From: Clostridium rhizosphaerae
GTDB lineage: Bacteria > Bacillota > Clostridia > Clostridiales > Clostridiaceae
Direction: 5' to 3'
Length of the DNA: 64,000 nt
Assembly (NCBI RefSeq): GCF_016765585.1
Contig: NZ_JAESWC010000014.1
Location: forward strand, 186,001-250,000
This document shows, piece by piece, positions 27,396 through 39,850 of the stretch; positions within the stretch are counted from its first letter, which is position 1, and each line of letters starts with the position of its first letter. The notes under the pieces were generated by a model. The model ran no database searches. It saw only the letters and a list, made by a program, of their open reading frames with translations, and had not been told where the DNA came from. The position numbers and the translations under genes are program-made.

Positions 27396-28049
27396 CTATT
27401 CAACCCCCTCAATAATATAATCAACCAATACTCCCGGTGTAATAACGTAGTCTGGATTTAATTCTCCCTTTTTAACTAGTTTTTCAGCCTCTACAACAAC
27501 CTTTTCTCCAGACATAGCAATTATTGGATTAAAGTTTCTTGTAGTACCTTTGTAAAATGTGTTTCCAAACTCATCAACTATAGTTCCTCTTATTATTGCT
27601 AAATCAGCTTTTAAAGGAAGTTCAATCAAGTATTCCTTACCTTCTATAGTAACCTTTTGCTTTCCTTCTTCAACAATTGTGCCTACTCCGGTAGGTGTCA
27701 AAACTCCCCCAAGTCCTGAACCTCCCGCTCTTATTCTTTCTATAAGAGTTCCCTGAGGTACTAATTCCACTTCCATTAAGCCTTCATTCATAAGTCTTCC
27801 TGTTTCTGAATTAGTGCCTATATGAGAAGCTATAACCTTTTTAACTTGTCTGTTTACAACAAGGCGGCCTATTCCCTTATCAACATAGCTAGTGTCATTA
27901 GCTATTATTGTTAAATCCTTAATATTAAGCTCTATAAGAGTATCAATTATCTTATGTGGAGTACCGCAACCTAAAAAACCGCCAATCATAATTGACATAC
28001 CGTCTCTAAAAAGGCTTTTAATTTCTTCCGGCTTAACTACCTTATTCAA
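27396..28049 (-). CDS. Butyrate-acetoacetate CoA-transferase, subunit A
   Basis: 217 residues, the alpha subunit of a family I CoA-transferase (atoD type). The CoA-binding motif [10 protein letters not shown] lies at residues 22-31, followed by [13 protein letters not shown] and the conserved [11 protein letters not shown] segment. The subunit pairs with the following gene to form an alpha2beta2 enzyme. It lies 22 bases after kce. The position inside the lysine operon indicates acetoacetate from Kce as one substrate and butyryl-CoA as the CoA donor. Confidence 0.93.
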
Positions 28050-28071
28050 GATTTATCCCCCAATCCCCAAA

Positions 28072-28893
28072 TTATTTTTTAAGACCTAATATTTCTCTTG
28101 CCTCAGCTGGAGTTGCAATTTCTCTACCAAGTTCTTTAGCAAGTCTTACAACCTTTTCAACAAGTTCTCCGTTTGATGCAGCAAGTACACCTTTGGATAG
28201 GTAAACGTTATCTTCATAGCCGACTCTAACATGTCCACCAGAGATTATTGACATCGCTGCCATAGGAAACTCATTTCTTCCTATGCCTGATACTGTAAAG
28301 GTACTTCCTTCAGGAATACTTCCCATCATAAAGGTAAAGTCTCTTGCCTCTGCACTTATTCCCCCATTAACTCCCATTACAAAGTTAAAATGCATTGGGG
28401 CCTTTATGTAGCCCTTCTTTTGAAGCCTTACAGCCATATCAATCATACCTTTATCAAAAACCTCAACCTCAGGCTTTATTCCTAAAGCTATCATCTTCTC
28501 TCCAAAAGCTTTAATCATATTTTCTGTATTTACAAAAATATCATCTCCACCAAAGTTGCAGGTTCCACAGTCTAAAGTGGCCATTTCAGGTAAAAGCTGC
28601 GTAGGCTGAAGTCTTTCTTCTATGCTCATACCTACTGCTCCACCGGTTGAAGGCTGAATAATAACATCTGGACATCTTCTTTTTATCTCTTCAATGCATA
28701 ATCTGAATCTTTCCTTATCCTGAGTTGGAGTACCATCATCATTTCTTACATGAAGATGTATTATGCTTGCTCCTGCTTTATAAGCAGCTTCAGCTTCTCT
28801 TCCAATCTCTTCCACAGTATATGGAACACTAGGATTATGCTCTTTAGTAACCTCAGCACCACATATTGCTGCAGTAATAATTAATTTTTCCAT
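28072..28893 (-). CDS. kce: 3-keto-5-aminohexanoate cleavage enzyme
   Basis: A 273-residue BKACE-family TIM barrel enzyme. It condenses 3-keto-5-aminohexanoate with acetyl-CoA, giving acetoacetate and L-3-aminobutyryl-CoA. Visible marks are ITAAICGAEVTKEHNP, SIIHLHVRNDDGTPT with the metal-binding HLH pair, and the conserved PEVEVFDKGM and GGHVRVGYEDN segments. The length is typical. It is the second gene of the operon, between kal and the CoA-transferase, as in other lysine fermenters. Confidence 0.96.
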   Translation of the reverse strand: MEKLIITAAICGAEVTKEHNPSVPYTVEEIGREAEAAYKAGASIIHLHVRNDDGTPTQDKERFRLCIEEIKRRCPDVIIQPSTGGAVGMSIEERLQPTQLLPEMATLDCGTCNFGGDDIFVNTENMIKAFGEKMIALGIKPEVEVFDKGMIDMAVRLQKKGYIKAPMHFNFVMGVNGGISAEARDFTFMMGSIPEGSTFTVSGIGRNEFPMAAMSIISGGHVRVGYEDNVYLSKGVLAASNGELVEKVVRLAKELGREIATPAEAREILGLKK

Positions 28894-28924
28894 AATACTT
28901 CCCCCATTTTAAACCCATAGACCT

Positions 28925-29317
28925 TTATTTCTTTCTTTGCTTATCCTTTGGCACTACGCAGGTTCCTGTAGCCCTGCATACTACAACAGGCTCATCTAAT
29001 ACATCTGCTGCAGAATCATTTATATAAGGCAGAGGAACAATAACCTTTCTTGCTTCAAATCTCATTTTTCTTGAAGTTTTTCCACACTCAATTATTTCTC
29101 CCTCGGCTTCAATGTAATCTCCAGCATAAACAGGTGCTAAAAATTCTACATTGTCATACGCTCTAAAAAGTCCTTCGTCTCCATCATTTCTTATTAGGAG
29201 TTCTGTAGCCACATCTCCAAAAAGCTGAAGCATTCTAGCTCCGTCTACAAGATTACCTCCATAATGTGCGTCGTGCGTACTCATTCTTAATCTAATTAAT
29301 GATTTCAATTCCTTCAC
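28925..29317 (-). CDS. kal: 3-aminobutyryl-CoA ammonia-lyase
   Basis: A 130-residue hotdog-fold enzyme that removes ammonia from L-3-aminobutyryl-CoA to give crotonyl-CoA, which is then reduced to butyrate. The sequence shows the hotdog pattern [25 protein letters not shown] and [18 protein letters not shown]. It is the first gene of the operon. GGGGGTGAAGG precedes the start, and the riboswitch terminator lies immediately upstream, so the riboswitch controls the entire set. Confidence 0.95.
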
Positions 29318-29833: not shown

Positions 29834-30415
29834 ATGTCAGACTACAAACCAACTAGAGAAGAAGCCTTTGAACTTCTAAAAGAATTTAATAAAAGCGAAA
29901 GTCTTATTAAGCATGCACTTTCAGTTGAAGCTGTTATGAGGCACTTTGCAGAACTTTTTAATGAACCTGATGTTGAGAAGTGGGGTATTATAGGTCTAAC
30001 ACATGATTTAGATTATGAGATGTATCCTGAAGAGCACTGCAAGAAAACTGGCGAGATTTTAAGGGAAAGAAACTGGTCAGAAGATTATATTCATGCAATT
30101 CAAAGTCATGGCTATGGAATATGTATTGATATTGAGCCTATAGAAAAGATGGAAAAGATGCTTTATACAACAGATGAATTAACAGGTCTTATTGCTGCAA
30201 CTGCTCTTATGAGACCCAGTAAAAGCATATTAGATACTGAACTTAAATCTATTAAAAAGAAATGGAAAACAAAAGGCTTTGCCGCAGGAGTAAATAGAGA
30301 GCTTATAGCAGAAGGTGCTCAAAAGCTTGGCATGGATTTAGATACAATTATTGAAGAAACACTAAAAGGAATGCAGAAGGAAGCAGATGCTATAGGTCTT
30401 AAAGGCAGCTTATAA
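29834..30415 (+). CDS. HD domain (HDIG-type) phosphohydrolase
   Basis: A 193-residue soluble HD-superfamily protein. KHALSVEAVMRHFAEL supplies the first His, LTHDLDYEMYPEEHCKKTG has the HD pair and a following His, and AIQSHGYG has another metal-site His. This is the HDIG-type protein common in clostridia, a predicted metal-dependent phosphohydrolase with unknown substrate. The start has AGAAGG ahead and its own promoter. It is followed 68 bases later by a kinase-fold gene. Confidence 0.85.
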   Translation: MSDYKPTREEAFELLKEFNKSESLIKHALSVEAVMRHFAELFNEPDVEKWGIIGLTHDLDYEMYPEEHCKKTGEILRERNWSEDYIHAIQSHGYGICIDIEPIEKMEKMLYTTDELTGLIAATALMRPSKSILDTELKSIKKKWKTKGFAAGVNRELIAEGAQKLGMDLDTIIEETLKGMQKEADAIGLKGSL

Positions 30416-30483
30416 AACTAATGTAACATATTTCAATTACTAAACATATTATATAGGGAATCAATGTTTTTCGGGATGTATAT

Positions 30484-31071
30484 ATGGGGCACAGAAAGTA
30501 TAGAAGCATCAATCTCTTTGAATGTAAGTTTTTAGGCAAAGGACATAATGGTATTGTGTACCTTCTTCCTGATAATAAGGTAATTAAGATTTGCTATGTT
30601 ATGAAAGATTTTCATGGTGAAGCTTATATTTTAAAAAAGGTTAAAGGAAATAAATATTTTCCTCGAATATACGAGGTTGGCGGGAACTACATGATAAGAG
30701 ATTATGTAGATGGAATAACCTTAAAAAGCTACATAAAGAAAAATGGCCTCAGCAGGAAACTAACGCTTGAAATAATTGAACTACTTAAGGAATTTCAAAA
30801 ACTTAAATTTAAGAAAATAGATATAAGATGCAAGGATGTTTATGTTCAGCCAAACGGAAAGCTGAAGGTAATTGACCCTCAAAAATTTTATTCAAAAGAG
30901 AGAGATTTTCCAAGACATTTATCTAAAGGCTTATATAAACTTAACGTTTTAGATGATTTTCTCTGCATATTAAAATACGAGGAACCCTCTCTTTATAAAA
31001 AGTGGGCATATAAAATCAGACGATATGTTATGACCCTAGAATTAGAAAATAAAATCGACGATGATGATTAA
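30484..31071 (+). CDS. Protein kinase-fold protein (small, divergent)
   Basis: A 195-residue protein with a kinase-like N-lobe: glycine loop FLGKGHNGIVYLL, Lys in KVIKICYV, and hinge YMIRDYVDG. The catalytic-loop region IDIRCKDVYVQPNGK departs from the usual HxD-N pattern, while VIDPQKF occupies the DFG position. It may be a catalytically altered or lipopolysaccharide-kinase-like enzyme. It resembles in layout the other small kinase-like protein at 42568-43224. The start ATG lacks a strong ribosome-binding site. The function is unknown. Confidence 0.65.
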   Translation: MGHRKYRSINLFECKFLGKGHNGIVYLLPDNKVIKICYVMKDFHGEAYILKKVKGNKYFPRIYEVGGNYMIRDYVDGITLKSYIKKNGLSRKLTLEIIELLKEFQKLKFKKIDIRCKDVYVQPNGKLKVIDPQKFYSKERDFPRHLSKGLYKLNVLDDFLCILKYEEPSLYKKWAYKIRRYVMTLELENKIDDDD

Positions 31072-31127: not shown

Positions 31128-31289
31128 TTATGCTTCTTTATCAAAATAGTCCATAAGAACTATTATTTCTTTGCAAAGCTCTGGATTCTTCAAAAGCTCT
31201 AATTTATTATAGCTTATATTATTTTCCTTAAGTCTTTTAGCTACTTCTTTATATGCATATAAGCTTTCTATGTCAATAACTTTGTCCAT
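31128..31289 (-). CDS. Small hypothetical protein closing the tubulin-like operon
   Basis: 53 residues from ATG 31289, chosen because AAGGTG lies 7 bases ahead; the frame is open further upstream. The sequence is charged and helical (MDKVIDIESLYAYKEVAKR) with no motif I recognise. It follows the transglutaminase-like gene by 54 bases in the same direction and is probably the last gene of that operon. Confidence 0.5.
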   Translation of the reverse strand: MDKVIDIESLYAYKEVAKRLKENNISYNKLELLKNPELCKEIIVLMDYFDKEA

Positions 31290-31343
31290 AACTATCACCT
31301 TATCTATCTTTTGTATCATAGTATGAAGCAAAGTTATCTTATG

Positions 31344-32486
31344 TTACATATTTGAGACCACTTCTTTAATGGGGACAACAGTAATGTTTGCTCCAGGCAT
31401 ATCAGGCATTTCTCCAACTCTAAAGCTCATTTGGCTGTTTTCTAAAGGAGTTACCTCACAGTAATAATAATTTCTGTTATTATATCTAAGAAAATTTCCC
31501 GGAACTCCTTCCGCACCTTCTACAGCTAAAGCTAAATGTCCTTCCCCCTCCGGAAAGGTTATTCTAAGTAAAACTATATCATAACCCATAGCATATAGTA
31601 TCGCTGCAGAACAAATACTGTGACAATCACAGTCCCCTTCTCTATCAACTATGGTTTCAAGAGGATATCTTAAATACTCAGCGGTATTTTTCGAATCAAT
31701 ATCAGGAACATACTTAAGGCTTTGTTGAAAAGCCATTATTACTGAAGCCTGATGGAAGGTTGTAAAACCTCTTGCAACACAAATTCTTTTTATCTGTCTT
31801 GCAAATTCTACAACCTCGGGACAAATCCCATCTAATACATGTTCTCTTAAAGCTTGAGGCATATTATCAATATGATCTTTAGCCTTATACTCAATATACC
31901 TATCTGTATTAACAGGCAAACTTACTACAAATCTTACAGGCTGCTGCATTGCAAGAGGATCCATATTGTAAGTCCACTCAAATAACAGCGAATTGCTTCC
32001 TTGAACTGTTTCTTCGGACGCTGCTTCCGCTCTATCTCTTTGTTTAAAGCTCTTCTTATCTGATGTTCTAAATACATACATAAGACACAAAAATGCCAGC
32101 ACTATAATTTTTATATCAAATACACCTGCTAATATATGAATAAAAAGTACAATGACTATAGAAATAAAGCCTATGGCATTTATATTCCTTTGCCCTTTTG
32201 TGAACTTTGCTAAAAGCTTATTTTCTTCTATTTCATTATCTAAATATACATACACGCTTTTAACAACTATATATTTTAGCAAAAGATAAATACACAAGAA
32301 CAAAACGCCTGCATATACAACATAAAAAACTGCTGTTAAGATACCTGCCGTTCCTTCTGTAATAAAAGGAGTCCTTTGTGCATTTACAATACTTATAACA
32401 GTTTGATTTGATAGATGATAAAAAACTAAGTTAAGCGGTATTATATATAATAATCCAATCACTAATAACGCAGAAGCCTCAAGCAT
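31344..32486 (-). CDS. Membrane transglutaminase-like protein
   Basis: About 380 residues with three or four membrane helices in the first 130, then a soluble cysteine-protease/transglutaminase-like domain. The core motif is DREGDCDCHSICSAAIL (catalytic Cys), followed by the strand EGHLALAVEG carrying the His. Bacterial members of this superfamily are often peptidases or amidases rather than crosslinkers. The start is probably the ATG at 32486, which overlaps the TGA of the previous gene (ATGCTTGA), so translation is coupled. It is the fourth gene of the vWA / tubulin-like operon, and its role there is unknown. Confidence 0.75.
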   Translation of the reverse strand: MLEASALLVIGLLYIIPLNLVFYHLSNQTVISIVNAQRTPFITEGTAGILTAVFYVVYAGVLFLCIYLLLKYIVVKSVYVYLDNEIEENKLLAKFTKGQRNINAIGFISIVIVLFIHILAGVFDIKIIVLAFLCLMYVFRTSDKKSFKQRDRAEAASEETVQGSNSLLFEWTYNMDPLAMQQPVRFVVSLPVNTDRYIEYKAKDHIDNMPQALREHVLDGICPEVVEFARQIKRICVARGFTTFHQASVIMAFQQSLKYVPDIDSKNTAEYLRYPLETIVDREGDCDCHSICSAAILYAMGYDIVLLRITFPEGEGHLALAVEGAEGVPGNFLRYNNRNYYYCEVTPLENSQMSFRVGEMPDMPGANITVVPIKEVVSNM

Positions 32487-34626
32487 TTCTCTCACTCTCC
32501 CTCAACAGCTTTCTAACAGGAGCTATATTATTAAAATTCACACCCAGGCAGAGTCTTATGATAGATATACAATTTGTATAAATATCTCTTCCCTCAATAA
32601 TTGACACATCAAAGCCTGAGAGATCATCAGGTTTCATTTCCCTAGTAACCTTATAAACCTGAGGGGAGGTTATAAAAAGAGAATGTTCTTCAAGCAGGTC
32701 ATTATTTATATACTGCAAAAGATACTTTGATTTAACCAAACCTTTATCAATCCACTTGCTTAATTCTTCACTGATATTTTCTTTGTATTTAAATTTCATG
32801 TATTCAAAAAAATCAAGTTCAATATAAATTGGAGAAGCTTCTAAGCAGAACTTCTTTATCTTATCTTCCAAGTTACCTTTATTAAATTCCTTAAATCCCC
32901 CAAGCTCTAATAAAAAGTTTCTATATAAATCTGAAATTCTGGGAACTTTCTCCTTATAAAAATTGCTTCTATCTTCAAAATTCAGTAAATCTGAAATAAG
33001 ATTTCCCATGTTTTCTTCTTCCTCCAGCTTAACAGGAGACATAAGCATAGAAAGCTCTCTGCATTTCTTTATACAGCTTATTAATTCTTCTCTTTTACTA
33101 GTTATATAGTTAATTAAACCTTTTTGATTATCTAGTAAACTTTTTTCTATATATAAATTTATTAGACTGCCACTCTTTATATATACTTCTTCTTTATAAG
33201 CTTTAATAAAGGTATTAATCCTCTTTAAAGTAAACCAGTATTCTAAGTAAGCTGCAGCAAAAAATATTAAAAAGAATACTATGGAAATAACAATATTAAC
33301 CTCTATATCAAATCTTGGATATAGAATATTTATCATAGAGTAGAGAAAAAACGCAGCTAAAATTATGCATTTTCCTATATATCCAATGAGGTTTGGATAA
33401 TTTTCCACCCTTTGCTTAAGTTCTTTGTTAAGCTTTGAAGTATCAGTGCTTATACTTGCTTTATTTGCAGGCTTCTGCTTTAAAATATGTTTCTCTAAAG
33501 TATTCAAATAATTTACTGCTTCTTTTAAACTATAGTTTAAAGTTATATTGCTTAAGTCTTCTTCTATATTTTCTATAATTTCCTCCGCACTTGAGTGAGC
33601 ATTTTTATCAATTGTTTTTTTCATATCAGTAAGACATTGATGCTCAATAAATTCCTCCCAGTTTTTAAAAACCTTTGGATACTCTGATATATCTTTAGGT
33701 AAGTTTAATTCAAACTGCTCGATATTGCTCAGTCTGCAGCAATCTTCTTCCTCTACTATATTAATGTTTTGTTTTAATTTATTTTTGTGAACCTCATAGT
33801 TTATAAGCTGAAATACTTTATTACCGCTAAACTCTCCATGCACCTCGGACTCAACTGCATATTTTAGTATGTCTTCTGCCATATACCTTGAAAAATCTTC
33901 AAGAAGCGTATCCTTAAATACAGTCAAGGTTGTAATGCCAATAGTGCCTACCTTATAATCCCCTTCATTCATAAGAAGCCTTCTATTAAAGTTTGAAAGT
34001 GGCGGCTCCTTTGAAGGAAGTATGTTTAGATAAGTTAATATGCCGCTTATATATTCCAACTCTTTCATGGGTATTCTTGTCCCATCGTTTGAAACACAAT
34101 GGAGCACATATACCTTTGAATCAATATTAAGTATGTTTTCTTTCTTTGAAACGTACTCTACAATTTGTTTTAACTTTTCTATGGATTCTATACTGCTTTT
34201 TTCCTCTAAAGTCCATTCCTTTTCCATAAGAGGAAGAACGTATAGGGAAACCCCCGAATGCTGCTCCTTATCAATATTCCCATAATTTAAAGAAGACAGC
34301 ATTTTTAAAACCTCAAAGGCAGAAATATCAGAGTTATAAACGTCCCAAAGCAAATATATATTAATTTTTACAGAACTTATATTTTCACTTCTAACCTTAT
34401 AGCCTAAATCAACAAGCCTATTTAGATATTTTGCAGAAAGCAGCCTTGTATCTACTATTTCTTGAATTTCCTTGGATAAGCTTTCTAGGCTTTCTGCATT
34501 ATAGTAATCTACCAAATCCAAAAAGTGCTTTGGCATATAGGCTAAAAGCTTTTTAGAAAAATCAAGGGCCTTACTCCCAGAAGGCCCAAGAGATATTAAA
34601 AGTGAAGGATTAAAAATCTCATTCAT
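32479..34626 (-). CDS. Probable degenerate tubulin-like protein with central membrane helices
   Basis: About 715 residues, no family recognised directly. The N-terminus SLLISLGPSGSKALDFSKK mirrors TLIIGLGGTGYQVIKRLK of the adjacent tubulin-like protein. INIYLLWDVYNSDISAFEVLK, then SLYVLPLMEK, falls where the neighbour has its GGTGCGT loop, helix and next strand. So it appears to be a tubulin-fold paralogue that has lost its GTP-binding signature. Two membrane helices lie at about residues 410-470, followed by a helical C-terminal half. GGAGG precedes ATG 34626. It is the third gene of the operon. Homology is inferred by eye only. Confidence 0.6.
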   Translation of the reverse strand: MNEIFNPSLLISLGPSGSKALDFSKKLLAYMPKHFLDLVDYYNAESLESLSKEIQEIVDTRLLSAKYLNRLVDLGYKVRSENISSVKINIYLLWDVYNSDISAFEVLKMLSSLNYGNIDKEQHSGVSLYVLPLMEKEWTLEEKSSIESIEKLKQIVEYVSKKENILNIDSKVYVLHCVSNDGTRIPMKELEYISGILTYLNILPSKEPPLSNFNRRLLMNEGDYKVGTIGITTLTVFKDTLLEDFSRYMAEDILKYAVESEVHGEFSGNKVFQLINYEVHKNKLKQNINIVEEEDCCRLSNIEQFELNLPKDISEYPKVFKNWEEFIEHQCLTDMKKTIDKNAHSSAEEIIENIEEDLSNITLNYSLKEAVNYLNTLEKHILKQKPANKASISTDTSKLNKELKQRVENYPNLIGYIGKCIILAAFFLYSMINILYPRFDIEVNIVISIVFFLIFFAAAYLEYWFTLKRINTFIKAYKEEVYIKSGSLINLYIEKSLLDNQKGLINYITSKREELISCIKKCRELSMLMSPVKLEEEENMGNLISDLLNFEDRSNFYKEKVPRISDLYRNFLLELGGFKEFNKGNLEDKIKKFCLEASPIYIELDFFEYMKFKYKENISEELSKWIDKGLVKSKYLLQYINNDLLEEHSLFITSPQVYKVTREMKPDDLSGFDVSIIEGRDIYTNCISIIRLCLGVNFNNIAPVRKLLRESERNA

Positions 34627-34675
34627 CAAAAACCTCCAGTATTAAACATACTGCTTAAAAATGTCTCTACTTTGG

Positions 34676-37456
34676 TTAACCTTCAATAATTCTCTGGTTA
34701 ATCTTTTCCTTTGCAATAAAATCTCCAAGTGCTTTATCCTTTATATAATTTTCAATGCAGTGAGCCTTAAGCTGTTCTTTATTAAGCTTGCTTTTTACAT
34801 TTTTTATAAAGCCGTCAATAAGTTCGCTTGCTTCAGCATTTTCACTTAAATATTTTATTGCCTCATGATAATTGTCCCCTATCTTAAGCTTTAATAAAGT
34901 CTCAGAAGTTGTACTTGGTATACCTCCATTTTCCATAACATAATCAATAGGCTTGAGGCAGTACTTGTAAGGGTAAATATACCAATACGCATCCTTTTCC
35001 TTCTTTATATTTAAATAAAGGCCATTATCTATCTCCATAATCGCTCCATAAGCCCTTGCTAAAGAGTAGTTTAAAAGAACCTTTTCCATATCTAAATCCA
35101 ATTCTTCAAGTCCTATATACTCCTCATTTAAATGAAGCGGGTAGGCTTTTGAAGCTAGAAGCTTTAGGTAAAACTGCTTATAGTGCTTTATATCTGGAAG
35201 ATAAGCAGCACAGGCCCCCATTGTTATATGAATAACATCTATAGCATTAGGATTAGTTGTTTCCACATATCTAGCCCATCTTGAACGCTCTCCTGTCTGA
35301 TTTCTTATCCAGTTGTCAATTTCCTTTGGAGCTTTTATTGTAAAGCCATTATTTATGCTTTCATCCTTAACACAACCAATGTAATAGCACTCTGTCCAGG
35401 ATACCTCTGGATTTTTTATCGCTGACCAAAACGGCTTAGCAAGCTTTGAGGTAATATCCAATTCTTCTGTTACATAGCTTTCGAAGCTCATACCTTTAGT
35501 TTCAGCATTTTCCTCAAGTATTTTCATAATATCGTTATATGGTGCTACTCTTTCATATTGAGCTTCACATAGCTTTATAAGTTCTTCAGAATTCCCTTCA
35601 ATTAAAATAGGATCTATTATTCCTTTAGAAACACCTTTAAAATACTTGTTATAATAGCTTTCATAGAATTCCCTTCCTATCATTTCACGGGATATAATAT
35701 TTCCCCCATACTTCTTCTCGTTTTGATTATTAATTTTATTAAGATTGTTATTAATATCATTTAGCATATAAAGTATATTGTTATTTAAATTGCTCAGCTT
35801 TTTAATAACTTCTTTTATGATATCTTCAATAAAATTATATCTGTCTTTATAAATTAGATTTCTTACTCCAGAGTAAAGCTGCTGAGCATAATCATTAAAA
35901 TTATTTATTATCTCAAATGGAACAGGCTCTTTTCCGGATAAAACTTTTCCGTAAGTTTTTTTATTGGACGCAATGCCATTTATTTCCCCTTCAACATAGC
36001 TTCTGTCTACCGAAGAATAAGAATTATTGCTGCTCATATCTTTCATAAACCTTGTATTGAGTCTGTCTAAAAGCTCTATTGTAAATTTTATTCCCCTTTC
36101 AATTACAAGGTCATTAACAAAGTTATTTACTATTTTATCAATGTCACCCTTACTGCTCGTCTTAATCCTTTTCCAAAATTCCTTCTTATCTCTTTCACTG
36201 TTTTCAAGCATGTCTAAATTGCTTTTATACGCTTCTTTTAAGTCCTTATAATAAATTACAGCCGGAAGCTCACAGCCAGATATAAAATCTTCTCCTGCTT
36301 CTTTTATCTTAAGCCTTTCATCAATACCTTTAATTAAACTGTTTAGTTCCTTATTTAAAGCTTCTTCATCCTTACTAAATTCACTGCTTATTTTATTTAA
36401 AATATCCTTAGCAAGCATATTGCAGCAGTATCCCTTTAAGTTATCTGCTGAAAATTCCATAGAGGAGGAAGAGAAGGTACTAAAATGTCTATCCCTATTT
36501 AATACGGGGTCTTTATCCTTGCATATAAAATTAGCATAATCAGCTCTAAGCTGAGAACCAAGCTTTGTTCCTATCTCCTGAAATAATTGAAGAGAGCACA
36601 AATCGTATATATCTTCAATATTTGTAAGAACTCCACCCATTTCATTTTTATTTTCTATAAGATAGCAAATATCTAAAAGCTTTCTATCAAGCTTTATTTC
36701 ACCAACATTGTTATATTTAAAGGTATATTTCTTATCCTCAGGATTTGTAATGGAAGACATGTAAAACTCAAGCTCCTTAAGAGCAGCATAACAATTAGCC
36801 TTACTTCTGTTTTGTGCATCCAAATCTGAGGAAAGCTTGTCATCATAGCAGCTTTCCAGTGTAAACATACCTATAATATTCGTATTGTCTCTATTGAATA
36901 TTTTTGAAACCATCACTGCCACATCAAGAAAGGTTCCGCAACCGGTTCCCCCTGCAAGAGATCCCACTATATAAACCTTATGTCTGTCTATATTCTCTAG
37001 ATAGTTATCCTCTAAATCAATTAAAACCTTATGAAGATCGACCAAATCATTTTTAGCAGTCTGAAGACTGTCATATGATAGCTTTGCATTTTTGCACAGA
37101 TACATTCTTCCTATGGGCCTTACAAGTCCAGCACCTTGATCTGTAGATGTAAAAAAGTCTGGTGTTATCTTAGGGTTTTTAGGCAGCCATTCAAAATTAG
37201 AGTTTCCATAAGCCCATTCAAGAGTATTTTTAATTCCTTCACCGAATCTTAGCTGGCACTTTTCATTGTTCTTTATACTGTCATCAAGAAAGGATTTTAA
37301 ATCTGTATCTATTAATAGATATCTAACTGGAAGTTTTTCATCCTTGTATCTTTTGTCAAAGAGCTGTTTAAGTCTTTTAATTACCTGATATCCTGTACCT
37401 CCAAGACCTATTATAAGGGTCGGCAGAATATCCTTTGGAACCTTGGTATTTTTCAT
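34676..37456 (-). CDS. Tubulin-like (Tubulin_2 / FtsZ-like) protein
   Basis: A 926-residue protein. N-terminal glycine loop LIIGLGGTGYQVI (residues 14-26), DTD after strand two (50-52), GAGLVRPIGR (108-117) and the tubulin/FtsZ signature GGTGCGT at 169-175 indicate a GTP-binding tubulin-fold domain. This belongs to the large-bacterial group named Tubulin_2 (FtsZ-like family 2 in comparative studies). The C-terminal 550 residues are helical and unassigned. The group has been proposed from gene context to take part in membrane remodelling, with no experimental function that I know of. It is the second gene after the vWA protein, 27 bases away, with GGGGGG before the ATG. Confidence 0.82.
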   Translation of the reverse strand: MKNTKVPKDILPTLIIGLGGTGYQVIKRLKQLFDKRYKDEKLPVRYLLIDTDLKSFLDDSIKNNEKCQLRFGEGIKNTLEWAYGNSNFEWLPKNPKITPDFFTSTDQGAGLVRPIGRMYLCKNAKLSYDSLQTAKNDLVDLHKVLIDLEDNYLENIDRHKVYIVGSLAGGTGCGTFLDVAVMVSKIFNRDNTNIIGMFTLESCYDDKLSSDLDAQNRSKANCYAALKELEFYMSSITNPEDKKYTFKYNNVGEIKLDRKLLDICYLIENKNEMGGVLTNIEDIYDLCSLQLFQEIGTKLGSQLRADYANFICKDKDPVLNRDRHFSTFSSSSMEFSADNLKGYCCNMLAKDILNKISSEFSKDEEALNKELNSLIKGIDERLKIKEAGEDFISGCELPAVIYYKDLKEAYKSNLDMLENSERDKKEFWKRIKTSSKGDIDKIVNNFVNDLVIERGIKFTIELLDRLNTRFMKDMSSNNSYSSVDRSYVEGEINGIASNKKTYGKVLSGKEPVPFEIINNFNDYAQQLYSGVRNLIYKDRYNFIEDIIKEVIKKLSNLNNNILYMLNDINNNLNKINNQNEKKYGGNIISREMIGREFYESYYNKYFKGVSKGIIDPILIEGNSEELIKLCEAQYERVAPYNDIMKILEENAETKGMSFESYVTEELDITSKLAKPFWSAIKNPEVSWTECYYIGCVKDESINNGFTIKAPKEIDNWIRNQTGERSRWARYVETTNPNAIDVIHITMGACAAYLPDIKHYKQFYLKLLASKAYPLHLNEEYIGLEELDLDMEKVLLNYSLARAYGAIMEIDNGLYLNIKKEKDAYWYIYPYKYCLKPIDYVMENGGIPSTTSETLLKLKIGDNYHEAIKYLSENAEASELIDGFIKNVKSKLNKEQLKAHCIENYIKDKALGDFIAKEKINQRIIEG

Positions 37457-37482
37457 AATGTACCCCCCGGTAAATTTAAATT

Positions 37483-39747
37483 TTATTTGAAGTAAATAGT
37501 TATTGTTTCTTCATTAATATCAAATCTTATTGGTTTAGCCATCTCATAATCCATCTGTCCTATAGGGTTTCCCTTTAAGTCCTTTTGCTTTAGCTTTGGA
37601 ACATACTTAACCTTAAATATCTTTTGTCCTTTGATTAAAAATTTTAGTCCTTGAGTTATTTTATTTCCGTCAGGCTGACTTAAAATAAAATGCCCAATAA
37701 GGTTACCTTGCGTATTATTATCTTTGAAAGCTTTGATATTTCCGTCTATAAAATTTAAATAGCAAACATTATTTTTATTGTTTAGCTTAATGCTAACAAA
37801 GCGATTTCCACCTTCTGAACTTCTGCAGCTTATCTTTTTATTAAATTCATATTTTGATACCTTAGTATTATAAATAAAAATACACAGGCTGATAAATGCA
37901 CCAGTTAAAGCCAGTAGTATAAACAAACTTATAAAAGCTATCTTATACCTGTACCAAAAATATTCTCCAGCAGACATTATCCTTAAGTTTGTTTCAACTT
38001 CGCTGTTTATTTTAATATCATTATCAGCTTTAAATAAAAACTTTAAATTGCTGCCTTTTTTCAAATTATTTAAGGTTATGACTGCCATACGGTCTTTAGG
38101 TTTTACATAGAAGTCCTTCAAGTGATTATTATTACTGTCATACAGGCTTATTTTTTCTTGTTTGTAAATTAAATTATCTGGCATAACAAATCTTATATCT
38201 ACAGAACTATTCTCCATAAAAGGCTTGCTATAAATTATGCTGCAAAATGTAATATGAGGATTATCTATAACTTTTGCCTTAAAGTAAGGGAGATAGTAGG
38301 AGTGGTTTTCTCCATCCTTCATAACTGTTATCTGAGAAGAAATCTTTACATCTCCTATGTTTTTTAAGCTAACCTCTGCATGCAACACTCCATTTTCAAA
38401 CCTAAAAGGAAAAGTTTCTTCTTTACCTTCATACTTTACATGAACATCTCCAGAAGCTTTCTCAATACTACTGCTATCAAGCTGCCTTAAGTCTATAGAA
38501 ACAACTTTATCTTTAAATATTTGTTCTGGAATAGGCTCGCAGTAATAAAAAGGAGTATTATCAGTAACATTAATATTTATATATTTAGCTGAAATTATAT
38601 TGTCATTACCATCGCAAGCTGTTATAAAAACAGGGTAAAAACCAGGTTTATCTTTGCTAAAAGTAAATTTAAACTCATTATTGCTCTTTTCTATCTCCTC
38701 TTTTTTACCTTCATCAACCTTGTACATATGAAGATCGCTTATCTGACTATCAGTATTAAGTACAGCCTGAAGATTTACAGGAACCTTATAGGGTATTTCG
38801 AAGGTATCGCTGGAACTGTTTATTCCTATAGAAACCTTGCTTTTAATCTGAATAATTATTGAATCTCTACTGTCCTCTTTAGTGGTTATTGTCAGCGTTC
38901 TATCCTCACTGTTTTTAAACTTATATATTTTATACCGATTTTCAGATATACTGCTTATCTCTGAGCCTTTGCTGTCTATTACATCTACAGAAGGAAACTT
39001 ATCTTCACAGGAAGCAATTTTGACTATTACCTCGTCAACATAAGAACTTAATTTTATTTTTTCCTCTGTCTTTCCGCTTGTTATATACTGTTTAATTGTA
39101 TAAAATCCGTTAATATTTCCAAGTATCTTGCTGAATATATCAAAGAGCCCTGAAGCATTTTCACTATAAAAATAATCTCCGTCTGTTTTATTAGATATAT
39201 TTGAAAGGACTTCTTTATCAGAGTCTTTTGAAAGTCCTATGGAGTGAATTTTAATTTTTTCCTTTTGAGCATCACCAATAATAGAATCGAGCTCTTTTTT
39301 ATGCACCTCCATATTTACTCCCTTAATGTCTTCTCTTCCATCAGAAAGCACTATTATTATTTTTTCTCCAGTAACAGCTTTAAGCTGATCTAAAGCTTCA
39401 GCCATTCCATCCTTTAAATTTGTATTCTTGTCAGTAAATTTAACTTCAGACAGCTGTTGTTTTAATATATCTCTCGAAGGCTTGTCTTGAAGTTTCTTTG
39501 TATAAACAACCTTATCTCCAAAGCTTAGTATGTTTAGATTTGTATTAGAATCTAAGGTATCTATAAGCATAGAAGCAGCAACAAGAGATAATCTTTTAGA
39601 GTCTGTTGTCTGCATACTTCCTGAATTATCTATTAAAAGTATTATATTCTTTTCATTTTCTGCAGCTTTTATATTCCTAAAAGTTAAAGGTTCAATGATA
39701 AATAGCAATAAAAAAAGAACTATTAAAACCTTATTATATCTTTTCAT
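37483..39747 (-). CDS. vWA-domain membrane protein
   Basis: About 754 residues. A signal peptide (KVLIVLFLLLFIIEPL) precedes a vWA domain with an intact MIDAS: IDNSGSM near residue 40, DKNTNLKDG, and VLSDGRED. Beta-rich regions follow to about 610, then a membrane helix (FISLFILLALTGAFISLCIF) and a cytoplasmic beta-rich tail of about 110 residues. The vWA part is therefore outside, the tail inside. ATG 39747 has GGGGAG 6 bases ahead. It is the first gene of the operon with the tubulin-like protein, which the tail could contact. The ligand is unknown. Confidence 0.85.
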   Translation of the reverse strand: MKRYNKVLIVLFLLLFIIEPLTFRNIKAAENEKNIILLIDNSGSMQTTDSKRLSLVAASMLIDTLDSNTNLNILSFGDKVVYTKKLQDKPSRDILKQQLSEVKFTDKNTNLKDGMAEALDQLKAVTGEKIIIVLSDGREDIKGVNMEVHKKELDSIIGDAQKEKIKIHSIGLSKDSDKEVLSNISNKTDGDYFYSENASGLFDIFSKILGNINGFYTIKQYITSGKTEEKIKLSSYVDEVIVKIASCEDKFPSVDVIDSKGSEISSISENRYKIYKFKNSEDRTLTITTKEDSRDSIIIQIKSKVSIGINSSSDTFEIPYKVPVNLQAVLNTDSQISDLHMYKVDEGKKEEIEKSNNEFKFTFSKDKPGFYPVFITACDGNDNIISAKYININVTDNTPFYYCEPIPEQIFKDKVVSIDLRQLDSSSIEKASGDVHVKYEGKEETFPFRFENGVLHAEVSLKNIGDVKISSQITVMKDGENHSYYLPYFKAKVIDNPHITFCSIIYSKPFMENSSVDIRFVMPDNLIYKQEKISLYDSNNNHLKDFYVKPKDRMAVITLNNLKKGSNLKFLFKADNDIKINSEVETNLRIMSAGEYFWYRYKIAFISLFILLALTGAFISLCIFIYNTKVSKYEFNKKISCRSSEGGNRFVSIKLNNKNNVCYLNFIDGNIKAFKDNNTQGNLIGHFILSQPDGNKITQGLKFLIKGQKIFKVKYVPKLKQKDLKGNPIGQMDYEMAKPIRFDINEETITIYFK

Positions 39748-39813
39748 AAGCATCTCCCCTTTAAGTATTCATTATTAATATATTTGTCTCTTATATATCT
39801 TTAGAACAAAAAA

Positions 39814-39850
39814 TAAAAATACCAAGATAATAATATCCTGGTATTTTTAT
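39814..39850 (-). terminator. Terminator after the second chemoreceptor gene
   Basis: AAAAATACCA and TGGTATTTTT, with inner pairs, form a hairpin with T-runs. It separates the chemoreceptor gene from the vWA operon downstream, which therefore needs its own promoter in about 39760-39815. No clear promoter was seen there. Confidence 0.8.

Follow-up and report, generated by a model that had tools for sequence, protein, structure and literature searches.

The operon

The stretch of the Clostridium rhizosphaerae genome analysed here (the window; 64,000 nucleotides, positions 186,001 to 250,000 of contig NZ_JAESWC010000014.1) carries on its minus strand an operon built around a bacterial tubulin of the Tubulin_2 family (PF13809), referred to as Tub. 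All five open reading frames (ORFs) named in the original prediction, which had been made from the letters of the window, were found (Table 1). Tub is preceded by the gene of a vWA membrane protein and followed by that of a membrane partner, TMP, which turned out to be a second, divergent tubulin; the genes of a transglutaminase-like membrane protein and of a small conserved protein complete the set. As had been claimed, the junctions are short or overlapping and measure, in order from the vWA gene to the small ORF, 26 bp, 46 bp, a 17-bp overlap when the longest starts are taken, and 12 bp.

Comparison with relatives suggests that the true starts of the 383-residue and the 716-residue genes lie a few codons past the longest-ORF starts. 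For the small gene, the probable start is the internal ATG at 31289: at six other loci the orthologous frames are 50-53 residues long, and four of the six begin exactly at the equivalent methionine, the other two three residues earlier. A terminator-like hairpin, a consensus match and thus a predicted terminator, sits 3′ of the upstream chemoreceptor gene, so that the vWA gene is probably the first of the operon. A promoter scan did not rise above shuffled sequences (39 versus 42.4).

Table 1. Genes and features of the operon (positions within the window)
Feature	Position	Strand	Description
vWA membrane protein	37483-39753	-	756 residues; PF00092 match, hydropathy, gene kept beside Tub
Tubulin_2 / FtsZl1 protein (Tub)	34676-37456	-	926 residues; PF13809 match
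Membrane partner (TMP), membrane-anchored pseudo-tubulin	32479-34629	-	716 residues
Transglutaminase-like membrane protein	31344-32495	-	383 residues; weak DUF553 and LapG-family matches
Small conserved protein	31128-31289	-	53 residues from the probable internal ATG; open frame extends to 31331 (67 residues)
Terminator-like hairpin (predicted)	39813-39850	-	between upstream chemoreceptor gene and operon; 17-pair stem with 3 G-C pairs, then T run

A Tubulin_2 protein with conserved T1 and T4 loops

The tubulin/FtsZ signatures that had been noticed in the 926-residue protein hold. In a Pfam search of the window protein, PF13809 matched residues 14-353 with an E-value of 4.6e-45 and 154.9 bits against a cut-off of 27; the lack of a tubulin-family match, which had been named as grounds for abandoning the idea, did not materialise. 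GLGGTG (residues 17-22) is the T1 loop and GGTGCG (169-174) the T4 loop, and both are retained in all N-terminal halves of Tub that were examined, T4 reading GGTGAG at locus L087. The N-terminal GTPase-type domain is followed by a long helical middle and a conserved C-terminal region (approx. 671-804). A structure model of low confidence (mean predicted local distance difference test score, pLDDT, of 54) has long helices at 403-583 and a partly helical C-terminus and is too poor to place T7. In structure comparison, the N-domains of Tub and TMP share the tubulin-type fold of FtsZ, CetZ, TubZ and gamma-tubulin, and Tub shares their T1 and T4 loops as well. Both proteins differ from these by very low sequence identity and large helical extensions, and TMP also by its transmembrane (TM) hairpin. 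Foldseek alone returned no match at E ≤ 1e-3, and a search of solved structures by sequence gave nothing useful for Tub. With T1 and T4 intact, Tub looks active; it may bind GTP and may polymerise.

Canonical FtsZ was found in all 13 genomes tested, and cell division is therefore not likely to be the job of the tubulin system. Four genomes hold a second, short FtsZ-like gene besides canonical FtsZ (G012:C4, G053:C47, G077:C12 and G113:C2:549594-549893); these open frames encode 353-357 residues and match PF00091 with E-values of 2e-11 to 3e-10.

A second tubulin at the membrane

TMP had been listed as a membrane-spanning partner. The membrane span stands, as hydropathy predicts a TM hairpin at approx. 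414-468, but the divergent tubulin nature of the protein had been missed. Its tubulin domain covers approx. residues 1-300, and the part behind the hairpin is helical. Pfam returned nothing over cut-off for TMP and no credible match by itself, and a first profile comparison of TMP with Tub, with 7+7 rows, was not significant. With more diverse rows, none of 200 and none of 100 shuffles scored as high as the real profiles, and the N-domain shows the tubulin-type fold. By homology, TMP is a divergent tubulin.

Its nucleotide-binding loops have fared differently from those of Tub. At the T1 position, TMPs of the window's family read SLGPSG, SAGPSG, SVGPSA and similar, and GLGGAG is retained only at L087. 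Eleven of 12 TMPs scanned matched neither the T1 nor the T4 pattern and that of L087 matched T1 only. Both patterns are narrow, and the one for T4 also missed GGTGAG in the L087 tubulin. A placement of T4 at TMP residues 170-189 was rejected, as hhalign aligns the DG(T/S)R stretch with Tub 264 onwards, beyond T4. In TMP, T1 is thus eroded and no T4 is recognisable, a statement on the absence of the motif and not on its position.

The vWA protein and the accessory genes

The membrane protein at the head of the operon was correctly called a vWA protein: its vWA domain (residues 36-206) matches PF00092 with an E-value of 1.1e-16, and the DxSxS motif reads DNSGS at 42-46 of the translation. Against solved structures, sequence search gave 4rck_A at E 0.0025. 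Hydropathy places a hydrophobic helix at residues 5-29 and a TM segment at 602-630, which leaves a tail of approx. 126 residues. Together with the flanking charges this predicts the vWA domain outside and the tail in the cytoplasm, the same arrangement as originally proposed.

The claim of a membrane transglutaminase-like protein fared less evenly. Hydrophobic segments at 3-29, 48-85 and 103-144, of which the third could hold two helices, suggest about four TM helices, and the flanking charge predicts a cytoplasmic catalytic domain; GDCDC and GEGHL in the window protein contain the putative active-site cysteine and histidine. The profile matches, however, are all below cut-off (DUF553 with E 0.003; the LapG model with E 7e-4 and 18.8 bits against 320). 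With the BTLCP/LapG-like family (Peptidase_C93, DUF553) the protein is connected by weak profile matches and the Cys/His motifs of the window protein; it differs in its predicted cytoplasmic side, in its approx. four TM helices and in the loss of the putative active site at most loci examined. This loss is apparent from the 11 loci whose sequence continues downstream (window, L031-L037, L039, L040 and L087): both residues are kept in two of them (window and L031) and lost in six, a 72-residue remnant is left in L033, and neither L040 nor L087 yielded the gene. Seven of the 11 hold the small gene, in a search that covered open frames down to 45-50 residues. As the transglutaminase-like gene is decayed or not found in nine of these loci and the small gene is found in only seven, the core of the operon is vWA-Tub-TMP, and the other two genes are less constant.

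Distribution and conservation

Among 194 genomes of the same family, Tubulin_2 matched in 41 at E ≤ 0.001 and exceeded the cut-off in 30. Of these 30 tubulins, 19 are long and score 231-293 bits; the other 11, at 157.6-173.2 bits with that of the window lowest, are compact and measure 924-963 residues where complete. Strong matches to the TMP profile (E < 1e-100) occurred in exactly the 11 genomes with a compact tubulin; seven of these contributed rows to the TMP model and so match it necessarily, while four (G053, G077, G106 and G109) did not. In a sample of the class, TMP was found in two of 391 genomes, namely the own genome and one marginal row. A sample of the phylum gave a Tubulin_2 match in 14 of 398 genomes (11 over cut-off) and TMP in three: two strong matches, in the window's genome and in G836, which both served as rows of that model, and a marginal one. 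A compact-type tubulin is present in G836 as well. The marginal TMP rows, G410 in the class (3.4e-4), G031 in the same family (2.4e-4) and G934 in the phylum (9e-5), were judged to be chance matches. No genome among the 194 has two Tubulin_2 matches over the cut-off, but with 11 compact and 19 long carriers approx. one double carrier would be expected by chance, so that this does not amount to mutual exclusion of the two systems.

The order vWA-Tub-TMP recurs at 12 loci (window, L031-L037, L039, L040, L052 and L087), with the vWA gene of L040 cut by the contig start and the TMP gene of L052 by the contig end, and the operon is thus more than a chance arrangement. The neighbourhood survey that had been proposed therefore bears out the grouping for these three genes, but not the equal membership of the transglutaminase-like and the small gene. 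In G109, which is not among these 12 loci, the tubulin is split over two contigs (L091 1-3083 and L038 3-1166), with the N-terminal half at a contig end and the C-terminal half behind a gene that by eye is ParA-like and a second small gene. A rearrangement, a plasmid junction or a misassembly may account for the split.

The genes flanking the operon vary between genera. Pfam was run on ten proteins (eight flanking proteins with a match, one vWA protein and one without a match), and the flanks proved to be transporters, enzymes, regulators and a DUF2207 protein. In the window, an HD-domain gene and a small kinase-like gene (29834-31071, plus strand) lie downstream of the operon and convergent with it. 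Their order recurs at the same-genus locus L031 and at no other locus examined, and the HD gene is absent from both same-genus genomes without the tubulin system. Elsewhere in the window, at 27396-29317, genes of the acyl-CoA transferase type and for a beta-keto acid cleavage enzyme resemble those of lysine fermentation.

Two loci with other Tubulin_2 genes were also seen. One (L088 9079-16569, in G278) encodes an 843-residue protein with GLGGAG as T1, a clostripain-family peptidase (PF03415) two genes on and an ATPase-like protein with GATGTGKT, and may represent a further tubulin system that includes a protease. At the other (L089 6967-19500, in G228), a 1192-residue Tubulin_2 protein adjoins an 887-residue protein with a vWA-like start, and kinase-like and PP2C-like genes follow further on, all of these likenesses being recognised by eye.

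Relation to known tubulin systems

The family was named FtsZ-like 1 (FtsZl1) by Makarova and Koonin in 2010 (PMC2875224), whose main text reports a vWA gene in most of its operons and proposes membrane remodelling. The operon of the window fits this description: its Tubulin_2 protein has an N-terminal GTPase-type domain and a long C-terminal extension, and the vWA protein encoded next to it retains an intact DxSxS motif. Unlike those operons, it contains none of the P-loop GTPase, protein kinase or OmpA partners that the same text finds frequent. The original prediction had filed the protein under FtsZ-like family 2. This label is wrong, and the number in the Pfam name Tubulin_2 is a coincidence. 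In the text cited, FtsZl2 is a separate family of Proteobacteria, and its authors found no genes associated with it, whereas the window protein belongs to FtsZ-like 1, stays below the cut-off of the Tubulin model PF00091 (22.3 bits versus 33) and has neighbours conserved in Clostridium-type genomes. In PMC9871819, Tubulin_2 proteins served as a root and were set aside.

The second point of comparison is the GAP1-N2 systems of Firmicutes, which according to the text of Kaur et al. 2020 (PMC7159879) hold two tubulins and two vWA proteins and for which conflict roles were predicted. Both share a pair of tubulin-type proteins together with an extracellular vWA protein, and the order vWA-Tub-second tubulin is found at the loci L043 and L090 as well. 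In contrast, the compact operon lacks GAP1-N2, a double GTPase and a second vWA gene, its tubulins (924-963 residues versus approx. 1129-1142 where complete) cluster separately on the tree (98/98, 10 rows), and TMP has a TM hairpin, which the approx. 780-residue partner of the GAP1-N2 systems lacks in the two rows scored. At E ≤ 0.001, GAP1-N2 was detected in none of the 11 compact genomes and in both controls; DO-GTPase2 (PF19993) likewise gave none of 11 against two of two, with 108 of 110-141 candidates scored in five of the genomes. The operon was accordingly not filed under the GAP1-N2 system. The long tubulins belong to that system in at least the two genomes tested, G035, where the L043 cluster comprises GAP1-N2, GAP1-M, DO-GTPase2 and two vWA genes, and G113, which has GAP1-N2 and DO-GTPase2; the other long loci share a similar gene layout only.

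By profile, a degenerate tubulin is likewise found in the partner of 770-789 residues beside the GAP1-N2-system tubulin (43.9, 0/200 shuffles); it has neither the T1 nor the T4 motif in any of eight rows (L043 4821-7160 and seven relatives). Compared directly, TMP and this partner did not match (11/60 and 36/60 shuffles as high; full length E 0.23), and the degenerate-tubulin status that they share therefore does not show orthology.

Discussion

The core described here consists of a surface vWA protein, an active-looking Tub and a second tubulin that lacks recognisable GTP-binding loops and carries a predicted TM hairpin. We read it as a compact vWA/FtsZl1 system free of GTPase switches, and we find the scales about level for and against the reading that follows. 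TMP would present a tubulin-type interface on the cytoplasmic side of the membrane and would there seed, cap or anchor a GTP-dependent Tub polymer, and the predicted cytoplasmic tail of the vWA protein may link the Tub/TMP assembly to an external ligand or a component of the wall. An accessory part in docking or processing would fall to the transglutaminase-like protein, which at most loci would have decayed to a pseudo-enzyme or been lost. The anatomy fits a device that couples the cell surface to the cytoskeleton, and it may signal from the outside in, as the original prediction had it. Going further, a nucleotide-dead tubulin embedded in the membrane might template polymers of the active one under the gate of the extracellular vWA domain, by functional analogy with gamma-tubulin and microtubules, and the pairing of an active with a pseudo-tubulin might be a design common to this system and the larger GAP1-N2 systems; this we put forward as a tentative and rather doubtful extension. 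The TMP of L040 (3438-5198, 586 residues, on a contig of a metagenome-assembled genome) lacks the TM hairpin although the sequence on either side of it is kept, which speaks against TMP serving strictly as a membrane anchor.

Among the rival readings, the most serious is a GTP switch that does not polymerise, in which Tub and TMP form a membrane-bound hetero-oligomer whose long helical arms relay the vWA signal by conformational change. According to the text of PMC2875224, FtsZl1 proteins have no recognisable T6-H7 elements; the pairing of an active and a pseudo-tubulin would suit a regulated heterodimer, and long helices dominate the models predicted for Tub and TMP. The tubulin-superfamily chains matched for Tub, however, are known as polymer formers or their templates, and on the whole we think a pure switch unlikely. 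Less favoured still is a role in conflict, anti-phage or anti-kin, as a reduced relative of the GTPase-centric GAP1-N2 systems. Besides the two tubulins, one of them degenerate, and the extracellular vWA protein found in both, the vWA protein of approx. 580-597 residues of the GAP1-N2 systems matches our vWA profile in six of eight Clostridiaceae-type loci and in L090, and the distribution of the compact system is patchy (11/194 genomes). Yet the regulatory core represented by GAP1-N2 and DO-GTPase2 is missing and no effector is evident, save possibly the transglutaminase-like domain with its putative active site lost at most loci, so that we hold this role to be improbable. PADLOC gave no match at E ≤ 0.01 for the four main proteins; on ten chosen flanking proteins it gave four, for a chemoreceptor (DruC, 0.005), a kinase-like protein (PD-T4-6, 7e-7), an ABC (ATP-binding cassette) transporter (mad3, 9e-24) and a sigma-54 activator (RtcR models, 2e-112), which we read as generic. 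That the membrane transglutaminase-like protein is itself a protease effector, merely positioned by the tubulin and vWA proteins, would agree with the retention of the putative active-site residues in the window and L031, but at the other nine loci the residues are lost or the gene is truncated or was not found, while the three remaining genes persist, and we hold this to be very improbable.

The link between vWA proteins and FtsZl1 is already in print, and the novelty is a pseudo-tubulin anchored in the membrane and a core reduced to three genes. The text of PMC2875224 describes no membrane pseudo-tubulin, and its unnamed families A1-A2 and B1-B9 may include TMP. Apart from the papers cited, none of the titles listed in our literature search looked like work on this operon, the supplements of PMC2875224, which may list such neighbourhoods, lying outside the search.

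In 2010, the function of Tubulin_2/FtsZl1 proteins was predicted from gene context only, and we found one experimental hint published since. If the reading of TMP as a seed, cap or anchor is true, a pseudo-tubulin built into a bacterial membrane would represent a novel means of nucleating or capping tubulin polymers. Since the minimal version has three genes, occurs in cultured anaerobes and includes a predicted template on the membrane side, the function of the family can be tested directly on two soluble domains and a single receptor tail.

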